The notes under the pieces: generated by a model | Databases searched by the model: none | The model's input: the letters and a program-made list of their open reading frames with translations, nothing else | What the model was told of the DNA's origin: nothing | Assembly (NCBI GenBank): GCA_019120075.1 | Contig: DWVT01000203.1 | Coordinates: 1 to 33,889 of the forward strand | Reading direction: 5' to 3' | Source of the DNA: Candidatus Mediterraneibacter excrementigallinarum | GTDB lineage: Bacteria; Bacillota; Clostridia; Lachnospirales; Lachnospiraceae | Length of the DNA: 33,889 nucleotides | In this document: positions 582 to 33,889 of the stretch, piece by piece | Position numbering within the stretch: position 1 is the stretch's first letter | Layout of the letters: the number at the start of each line of letters is the position of its first letter | Position numbers and translations under genes: made by a program

Positions 582-716
582 TCAGTCTGTCCTTTTTTAT
601 CTGCCTTTTTTCCGAAATACGCCAGTCTTTCAATCGGCACAATCCCTGACAGTCTGCCCTTTCAAACAACTCCCCTCCGCTTTTTGTGTAAAATTACGAA
701 TCACACGATTAATACG

Positions 717-745
717 TTGACTTTTATTGTTAAACATGCTACACT
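717..745 (+). promoter_or_regulatory. Extended -10 sigma-A promoter of the cold-shock gene
   Basis: TTGACT (717-722), a 17-base spacer and TACACT (740-745) preceded by TGC, giving an extended -10. Transcription should start near 752, leaving a leader of about 58 bases before the csp ATG. The 300 bases between cysK and csp hold only the two divergent promoters and the stem-loop at 752-777; I see no further gene. Confidence 0.75.
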
Positions 746-751
746 GTCACA

Positions 752-777
752 GTATTGGCATAAGTTTATACCAATAC
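752..777 (+). promoter_or_regulatory. Stem-loop or operator at the csp transcription start
   Basis: Inverted repeat with 11-base arms (752-762 and 767-777), one mismatch (C759/A770) and a 4-base AGTT loop. It begins at the predicted +1 of the csp transcript. It could be a 5'-terminal mRNA hairpin affecting stability or translation, or a repressor operator overlapping the start site. The sequence alone does not decide between these. Confidence 0.6.
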
Positions 778-809
778 AGCAACTTATCAATCTTATGGAG
801 GGTAACACA

Positions 810-1007
810 ATGACAGGTACAGTAAAATGGTTTAACAACCAGAAGGGATACGGATTCATCTCAGATTCTGAGGGCAATGATATCTTTGTCCACTACACAG
901 GACTCGTAATGGATGGATTCAAAACTCTGGAAGAAGGCCAGGCTGTCGAATTTGAGGTGACAGAAGGCGCAAAAGGACCACAGGCAACTAACGTAGTAAA
1001 ACTTTAA
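810..1007 (+). CDS. csp: Cold-shock protein (CspA family)
   Basis: A 65-residue single-OB-fold protein that binds single-stranded nucleic acid and acts as an RNA chaperone and transcription antiterminator. The RNP1-type motif KGYGFI follows the start TGTVKWFN, and RNP2 is DIFVHY; both aromatic binding strips are intact. The length matches the family (65-70 aa). I chose the ATG at 810 because GGAGGG sits 7 bases upstream. An open frame continues further 5' but is non-homologous leader. It is a single-gene unit with its own promoter (717-745) and terminator (1094-1127). The genome probably has other csp paralogues, so I give no number. Confidence 0.97.
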
Positions 1008-1093
1008 TCAGATTTTTTAATGTACCTTCTTAATATATAAATCAGACAGGCATTTAATATTAAAAAGCAATACAGAAAAAAGAGATTAAAAAA

Positions 1094-7169: not shown

Positions 7170-7357
7170 CTGACGGAAGAGGGGAAAACTGTAAGGGAGG
7201 AGGTGTCCGCCGGAGGGAGATGCCGTCTTCGGACCCGCTCCCGCTCGGAAAACAACGCAGCGGTACATAGGCGCGCAAAGAACGCGCGCCAAGGACCGGC
7301 GTTGTTTTACGGTCCTTATCCGGCATCTTCCTCCGGCTGGGCTGTTCTCTCCGGTTG
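7170..7357 (+). ncRNA. Structured element E1 (candidate non-coding RNA), diverged copy of the element at 33381-33554
   Basis: No gene fits 7084-7603. Within it I see a basal stem (7174-7181 with 7347-7353, one bulge) and a 17-bp stem P1 (7209-7225 with 7321-7337, one G-U if read as plus RNA). P2 pairs AAAACAACGC (7249-7258) with 7299-7308, extended by CGGT (7261-7264)/ACCG (7295-7298). P3 is GGCGCGC/GCGCGCC (7270-7276, 7284-7290) with loop AAAGAAC. Seven blocks recur in order in the second element: CTGACGGA, TCCGCCGGA, CGCTCGG, GTACATA, GCAAAGRACGC, TACGGYCCTT and TCTCCGG. Stems differ in sequence but keep pairing. The G-U pair favours the plus strand as the RNA. I do not recognise the family and found no convincing plus promoter; a dispersed DNA repeat is the alternative. 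Confidence 0.6.
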
Positions 7358-7450: not shown

Positions 7451-7496
7451 TGTTTCCGGAGTGCGGCAACGGTCAGATCCTTATAAATTGTGTACG

Positions 7497-7560
7497 AAAA
7501 GGGAGCGGTGCAGACATAGCCGGATTGTAATCTTTCCGTTCTGTCTGCACCGCTCCCCTT
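7497..7560 (-). terminator. Intrinsic terminator of glyA
   Basis: Perfect 16-bp inverted repeat (7501-7516 with 7542-7557) with a 25-base loop that can fold further. Read leftward from glyA it is followed by TTTT (7497-7500). It could also slow plus-strand transcription, which would meet only a short T-run. Confidence 0.85.
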
Positions 7561-7603
7561 TATCCCGATCCGCTGCGGCGGGAACAGCCCACCGAATCAG
7601 ATT

Positions 7604-33380: not shown

Positions 33381-33554
33381 CTGCCGGAGACAAAAAACAG
33401 CCGGAACACAGGTATCGCTTAAAGGGCCGTAGAGCAACATCAGCACTTAGGCTGCGTCCTTTGCAGCCTTATGTACTGCTATGTTGCGGCCCGAGCGAAA
33501 GCGCGCCCGCAAGCGATACCTGTATTCCGGCGGATTATTTTGCATCTCCGTCAG
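33381..33554 (-). ncRNA. Structured element E2 (candidate non-coding RNA), second copy of the E1 family
   Basis: Folds as a rod: basal stem (33381-33390 with 33545-33554, 9 of 10), P1 of 21 bp (33400-33420 with 33511-33531, one U-G on minus), P2 (33424-33429/33487-33492 and 33435-33440/33481-33486, with a 5-base bulge), an AGCA/TGCT step and P3 GGCTGC/GCAGCC (33450-33455, 33463-33468) with a 7-base loop. A GC-GAAA-GC mini hairpin sits at 33495-33502. It shares seven ordered blocks with 7170-7357. On minus, T6 (33392-33397) follows P1, so it could also end fumarase transcripts. Begins 5 bases after the fumarase stop. Family not recognised. Confidence 0.6.
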
Positions 33555-33558
33555 CTAA

Positions 33559-33889
33559 TTATTTCTTAGAATCAAGATAAGCTTTTCTTCCCTCTTCGTA
33601 AAGGTTATTTCCCTCGCTGTCAATAATAACAACGAGCGGCATATCCTCAACGTAAAGCTTTCTCAGCGCCTCTGCGCCGAGATCTTCGTATGCGATAAGC
33701 TCAGCTTTCTTGATACATTTTGCAAGAAGAGCTCCCGCGCCGCCAATGGCTCCGAAATAAACGCCGCTGTACTTTTTCATGGCTTCTACAACTTCCGGAA
33801 GACGTGCGCCTTTTCCAATCATTCCGCGGGCTCCTACTGACATCATTGTCGGAGCGTATGCATCCATACGTCCGCTGGTCGTCGGGCCT
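33559..33889 (-). CDS. fumB: Class I fumarate hydratase, beta subunit, C-terminal part
   Basis: The 4Fe-4S fumarase interconverting fumarate and malate (two-subunit form in anaerobes). The visible part runs from GPTTSGRMDAYAP at the window edge to GRKAYLDSKK. GPTTSGRMD is the substrate-binding signature of the beta chain, and GKG and YFGAIGGAGALL follow as in FumA/L-tartrate dehydratase beta. About 109 residues are present and the 5' part lies outside the window. A tartrate dehydratase beta subunit is the alternative. Confidence 0.93.
   Translation of the reverse strand, partial: GPTTSGRMDAYAPTMMSVGARGMIGKGARLPEVVEAMKKYSGVYFGAIGGAGALLAKCIKKAELIAYEDLGAEALRKLYVEDMPLVVIIDSEGNNLYEEGRKAYLDSKK

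Follow-up and report, generated by a model that had tools for sequence, protein, structure and literature searches.

A dispersed family of giant-hairpin repeats with a conserved core in gut Lachnospiraceae

What are the two similar intergenic elements found on a contig of Candidatus Mediterraneibacter excrementigallinarum, and which of their strands folds? The window considered here, that is the whole stretch of 33,889 nucleotides analysed (contig DWVT01000203.1, assembly GCA_019120075.1), contains two copies, c1 and c2, which were originally predicted to be one unrecognised structured RNA present twice. Each of the seven sequence blocks on which that prediction was built is indeed found once in each copy, and the two copies share the order of the blocks. 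The parts of the two copies are given below in the originally proposed orientation, R1 being a covariance model built from 51 aligned copies, c1 and c2 among them.

7170..7357, plus (original orientation; folded strand probably minus): c1, whole element (R1 match, fold z, outer blocks)
7211..7228, plus: c1, 5′ arm of outer stem P1 (model alignment)
7318..7335, plus: c1, 3′ arm of outer stem P1 (model alignment)
7231..7315, plus: c1, conserved apical core, GGAC...GTCC (alignment of 51 copies)
7237..7244, minus: c1, two-pair hairpin, with a GGGA (GNRA) loop on the minus strand
7275..7285, plus: c1, apical loop of the long hairpin, GC-AAAGAAC-GC (alignment and shared blocks)
33381..33554, minus: c2, whole element (R1 match, fold z)
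33511..33528, minus: c2, 5′ arm of outer stem P1 (model alignment)
33403..33420, minus: c2, 3′ arm of outer stem P1 (model alignment)
33424..33508, minus: c2, conserved apical core, GGGC...GCCC (alignment of 51 copies)
33495..33502, plus: c2, two-pair hairpin, with a GAAA (GNRA) loop on the plus strand
33454..33464, minus: c2, apical loop of the long hairpin, GC-AAAGGAC-GC (alignment and shared blocks)
33392..33402, minus: c2, terminator-like U-tract GGCTGTTTTTT after the hairpin base (sequence; ordinary terminators here in other species)

Compared with dinucleotide shuffles, c1 folds with a z of -5.4 and c2 with a z of -9.0, and in neither case was any of 200 shuffles as good. R1 scores 128.1 bits for c1 (match 7211-7335) and 130.5 bits for c2 (match 33403-33528), and a scan of the whole window up to E 10 found no third place. 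A known Rfam family can be rejected, as no match reached a curated gathering score: a scan of the whole window against Rfam 15 returned nothing at the element, and with permissive filters the best match was 10.6 bits (E 9.5-9.8) for c2 alone and 20.3 bits (E 0.26) for c1 alone, the latter to a plant-type miRNA hairpin with a gathering score of 137. The Rfam check proposed with the original prediction therefore gives no credible family for either copy. Elsewhere in the window, a sub-threshold match to the cspA thermoregulator (633-1036, plus strand; 26.5 bits, gathering 78) lies over an apparent cold-shock gene and is probably coding similarity.

Members of the family consist of two stems, a copy-specific outer one and GGAC/GTCC, and two hairpins, of which one has two pairs and the other is long, contains internal loops and ends in a seven-base loop (consensus AAAGGAC); the apical core of ~85 nt is conserved across copies. 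One copy with a broken arm (L057:1465) was excluded from the alignments, as were three further near-duplicate rows from the alignment of 51 copies. In the latter, read in the original orientation, 93.4% of cells pair and both sides change in 39 of 44 pairs, with a covariation score of 0.654 against 0.219 for shuffled and 0.10-0.16 for slid partners. Covariation this far over the controls supports the earlier argument that conserved loops on covarying stems mark a selected fold, and the stems that had been named from two sequences are backed by covariation across other copies.

The model search of this genome and of other Lachnospiraceae found the homologues with covariation that had been anticipated, but did not support the simple picture of a two-copy RNA gene. 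What emerges, in place of one RNA present twice, is a family of dispersed repeats that numbers at least 31 copies in this genome and has members that appear to have moved, and c2 looks like a stand-in for a terminator. A BLAST search with c2 gave matches in 26 of the 61 genomes searched: 25 of the 37 in the genus (own genome included) and one, of 29 bases, among the 24 outside it. With R1, copies were found in 44 of 58 genomes of the genus (14 were without any), reaching at least 47 per genome elsewhere in the genus; these copy numbers are lower bounds, at most 60 candidates having been scored per genome. Across a sample of Lachnospiraceae, 109 of 299 genomes carried copies (at most 11 candidates scored in each). 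Order-wide 45 of 344 genomes were positive and class-wide 10 of 391, every one of them Lachnospiraceae, although neither count states how many genomes were sampled outside that family. The exact core pattern occurred in 104 stretches of named genomes, and the 80 listed were mostly from Mediterraneibacter, Acetatifactor, Eisenbergiella, Ruminococcus turbiniformis, Anaerobium and other Lachnospiraceae/Clostridiales; three records from other phyla among the matches listed (L106, L164, L175) had no R1 match. A phage or plasmid origin was rejected, since the exact core pattern was unmatched in viral contigs and a distant BLAST with c2 was unmatched in plasmids and phages. Head-to-tail tandem copies were seen in genome G191, three in L218 and three in L222, at spacings of 187 nt and 211 nt.

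Where the copies lie relative to genes was assessed at 181 sites, orthologous sites included, with open reading frames of at least 120 aa standing in for genes. At 105 sites the closest gene end is a 3′ end co-directional with the original orientation, a median of 39 nt from the model edge; at the others it is an opposing 3′ end (24) or a 5′ end (33 and 19). c1 is an exception to this stop-codon rule, lying downstream of SHMT and 86 nt upstream of an AMP-ligase gene, and genome G247 has no gene-sense bias (two sense, four opposing, two other). Neighbouring copies within a locus form 36 pairs, of which 26 are convergent (c1 and c2, 26 kb apart, being one), nine tandem and one divergent. Runs of at least five T within 40 nt downstream accompany 17 of the 83 copies from the genus and 3 of the 91 from elsewhere, hence the majority of copies are not obvious terminators. 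Between the two window copies, 3′ of SHMT, there is also a long near-perfect hairpin (7495-7568) with a sub-threshold mir-31 match, which is probably the SHMT terminator.

The site of c2 allows a closer comparison, as the element starts four bases past the stop codon of a ttdB-like gene (33559-33867, Pfam Fumerase_C; ttdB below). A search with the ttdB end matched 36 of 58 genomes, and the 3′ flank was inspected in 27 loci (L374-L400). Six of these (L374-L378, L386) bear the element with a U-tract at its end, three (L390, L394, L399) show this outer hairpin closed by a short loop, the core being absent, and five (L379, L387, L391, L392, L395) bear a different giant hairpin. L390 is counted as core-less from its sequence, against an automated flag that marked a core there. 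The remaining 13, judged by eye, comprise ten with a plain stem-loop and T-run, two with a stem-loop lacking a clear T-run (L382, L383), and one with no stem-loop (L400). Judged from these flanks, the element at the c2 site occupies the place of ordinary terminators in other species, and c2 itself has the GC-rich stem and following U-tract, after a stop codon, by which an intrinsic terminator is predicted from sequence. The forms that lack the core may represent sites before insertion, or else products of deletion. As a separate observation, the five loci with a different giant hairpin join L436, L437, L438 and L448 in a second family, whose short core differs (consensus about CAACTCGCTTACGCTCAGACA) and whose arms are variable yet complementary; a pattern search did not find this core in the window.

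Orthologous copies show how the parts of the element change. Mean identities of the core, the arms and the 300 nt upstream, the last partly non-coding, were 0.953, 0.774 and 0.909 at ttdB; 0.890, 0.667 and 0.920 at carB; 0.863, 0.687 and 0.865 for the far copy at ileS and 0.879, 0.733 and 0.890 for the near one; and 0.976, 0.900 and 0.719 at the nrdG-leuS site (carB, ileS and nrdG being named from translations, leuS from a T-box match). For c1 and its orthologue in G007, the identities were 0.953, 0.694 and 0.865. The arms thus evolve faster than the core while complementarity is retained. Recent transfer may account for part of the ttdB set: SHMT diverges by 17% between G000 and G002, yet the ttdB ends of these two genomes and of G076 share 97-99% identity. 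Other hairpins were noted at these genes. In the region of the nrdG-like gene and the leuS T-box (L062, L063, L068, L074), another long conserved hairpin, starting about CAAAACATCCAAGCGGGAGCGTTCC, stands beside the family copy, and L062 and L068 matched in Rfam only the T-box and a weak chance hit. Two otherwise unlike long hairpins 3′ of SHMT, L315 (G020) and L319 (G002), share CTCCGGTTACAGG and CAAAGTAACAA, and are possibly a further family with the same architecture.

Evidence of movement is clearest in single genomes. G247 has eight closely similar copies at unrelated sites, and 9 of 10 full-length core-bearing units (259-260 bp) are bordered at their inverted ends by direct repeats that match exactly over 6-9 bp; one full-length unit has none, and the count leaves out a 179-bp core-bearing piece. 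The same test gave direct repeats at none of five sites in G191. In G628, eight copies confirmed by the model share ends other than those of G247, and paired ends ATACTTTATTGTT occur at 16 sites, mostly 197-199 bp apart, all with the core motif by a loose test; three genomes of the same genus gave two to three matches to this type of end, not above a backwards control. A TA target duplication in G628 was considered and dropped, as the ends continue into longer repeats, and there is no clear target-site duplication for c1, c2 or G628. Non-coding, multi-copy units with inverted ends, as in miniature inverted-repeat elements (MITEs), are found in G247 and G628, the ends of c1 and c2 not being defined, while G118 and G187 have yet other arms. 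Since unrelated ends share one core, a single transposase cannot account for all units. No inverted ends of the G247 type enclosed a reading frame of at least 110 aa in the 50 loci read for an autonomous partner, and no travelling transposase recurred among 901 clustered reading frames from 206 loci, which were mainly housekeeping genes. The clusters included a nuclease-like family in 11 loci (without a Pfam match), which we take to be Rpn-like, and an AAA-ATPase_like/PDDEXK_9 family in five. A synteny search of 16 genomes for empty sites found no clean one, the compared sites being too different; the syntenic site in G065 looks like a core deletion.

The family is dispersed and multi-copy, with a conserved core and covarying stems. 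As to its nature, we favour, with a probability of about 0.55, a non-autonomous mobile hairpin restricted to Lachnospiraceae and resembling a MITE, including the terminator and core steps described here. This reading draws on the copy numbers, the range within one bacterial family, the direct repeats in G247, the ends in G628, the bias towards stop codons and the terminator replacement at the c2 site, and also on the retention of the core while arms diverge between orthologues and the high share of pairs that change on both sides. It is weakened by the failure to find a transposase, the result in G191, the lack of sense bias in G247, the few T-runs and the want of a clean empty site. Under the MITE-like reading, an element would insert behind a gene, act there as an intrinsic terminator and be kept by descent. 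The core of ~85 nt could be a folded binding platform for a trans-acting factor, either aiding spread or used by the host; the platform would be made of RNA or, with lower probability, of single-stranded DNA, and would probably be formed by the complementary strand. The arms would need complementarity only, so that their sequence could drift while selection or palindrome-driven correction restored pairing. The G247 units are like bacterial MITEs in being short, non-coding and multi-copy, and in having direct repeats as well as inverted ends. The ends are what a usual MITE preserves, whereas this family conserves its centre and varies its ends among lineages.

Which strand folds bears on the strongest alternative. 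The original strand was chosen because the mismatches in the outer stem become G-U pairs in that orientation, which fails in the larger set: 166 sets of outer arms (12 of them perfect) contain 3990 Watson-Crick, 100 G-T, 172 A-C and 260 other pairs, an A-C mismatch on one strand corresponding to G-U on its complement. Core cells, taken from 82 matches with 74 distinct rows, lean the same way, with 1804 Watson-Crick, 28 G-T, 31 A-C and 39 other pairs, 17 of the 28 G-T pairs coming from a single column pair. The small hairpin loop could be parsed in 171 of 182 distinct copies and is GNRA on the complementary strand in 166 (GAAA 68, GAGA 46, GCAA 27, GGGA 13, GCGA 8, GGAA 4, with AAAA 4 and ACAA 1 besides), with varying closing pairs, the parser having favoured loops starting with T and ending with C wherever several windows fitted. 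Free energy is lower on the complementary strand in 140 of the 182 copies and higher in 41; since the copies are related, p-values for the loops and for free energy overstate. c2 by itself folds better on the original strand. Read on the complementary strand, 94.4% of cells pair and pair types exceed those of all shuffles; further pair types on the original strand show no excess (432 of 500 shuffles as high). Against a revision stands the co-directional placement of the original strand at the 105 sites, and covariance models of the two strands tied on 36 matches in held-out loci (17 better, 17 worse, 2 equal), so model score was dropped as a criterion. The A-C excess, the GNRA loops and the free energies indicate that the original strand is probably reversed, though the model scores favour neither strand. 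Much of this would also suit a functional RNA from the complementary strand, either trans-acting or leading a gene at its 5′ end, with the GNRA hairpin docked into the long one and with repetition secondary; at 33 of the 181 sites, that of c1 among them, the complementary strand would be a 5′ leader to the nearest gene. We consider such an RNA possible but unlikely: non-Watson-Crick pairs are scarce on both strands, which is unusual for a diverged RNA, no common promoter or gene class was seen, and the tie between the strand models and the preference of the loop parser count against it.

The near-purity of Watson-Crick pairing on both strands, and the rewriting of arms with complementarity kept, could suggest a structure at the DNA level, a single-stranded hairpin or cruciform that would be a recognition site for a recombinase or HUH-type enzyme, as with REP elements and integron attC sites. 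Sites of the attC type lie behind stop codons and fold on the complementary strand, and the placement of this family resembles that. We find a DNA structure doubtful, however, as a purine (A or G) occupies the third loop position in 171 of 171 parsed loops, as for an RNA GNRA loop, and no enzyme was found nearby. Conservation, moreover, lies at the centre of the family and not at its ends, whereas attC has conserved end boxes, its other mark being a nearby integron integrase.

A similarly doubtful idea is that the apical core is itself mobile, a module entering the tips of existing DNA hairpins such as terminators or MITE centres. It is suggested by the outer hairpin of the c2 site, which occurs with the core in six loci and without it in three, and by units with unrelated ends that bear one core; loss of the core by deletion fits the c2-site case equally well. 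Least probable is an immobile, vertically inherited 3′-UTR RNA of the sense strand, an elaborate terminator, which would explain the sense placement near stop codons, the terminator replaced at the c2 site and the retention at orthologous sites, but is weakened by the unrelated sites and direct repeats of closely similar copies, by the overall scarcity of T-runs and by a wobble bias on the other strand, whereas 72 ordinary terminator-like hairpins in the same DNA have the opposite, sense bias (31 G-T vs 16 A-C).

Among known systems, intrinsic terminators and REP-like palindromes resemble the family in forming a long hairpin past stop codons, with a U-tract at the c2 site, and differ in that the tip here bears a conserved branched core of ~85 nt. 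TwoAYGGAY RNA (RF01731) is alike in having a branched conserved core atop a long outer stem in gut Clostridia; its core sequence and fold are unlike those of the family, and neither c1 nor c2 matches RF01731. Passages of one report class it as a probable, non-cis-regulatory RNA of gut, Gammaproteobacteria and Clostridiales (PMC2864571), and passages of another describe poor conservation of its external stem and propose that it binds CsrA (PMC4333381). For the present family, CsrA binding was rejected because GGA is unconserved in its loop in the 51-copy alignment. CsrA requires GGA. A TwoAYGGAY match of 95 bits (gathering 43) at L228:1116-1279 (minus strand) adjoins a copy of the giant-hairpin family, in a unit of ~600 bp common to L223, L225 and L228 (L223 and L225 by similarity), which implies that the family is not alone in its architecture. 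In Fremin et al. (2021), 250 of 3161 candidate RNAs are palindromic and 230 of the 250 are predicted terminators (PMC8040213); the family may overlap with these palindromic candidates. No recognised description of the family was found in the literature covered, a coverage that stops short of subscription papers and supplements, and it is apparently unlisted so far.

For the study of such elements, the family carries a caution, in that covariation by itself proves neither an RNA gene nor its strand. Because orthologous arms are rewritten while the core is kept, the many copies are natural replicates with which RNA selection could be separated from palindrome correction in long hairpins. Should the core prove to be mobile, unrelated palindromes across a bacterial family would share one RNA-like tip, and a dedicated partner of the core, if one exists, would represent a new factor for binding nucleic acids or for mobilisation. 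Common gut bacteria, in any case, gain an apparently unlisted repeat family that is present in at least 47 copies in one genome.
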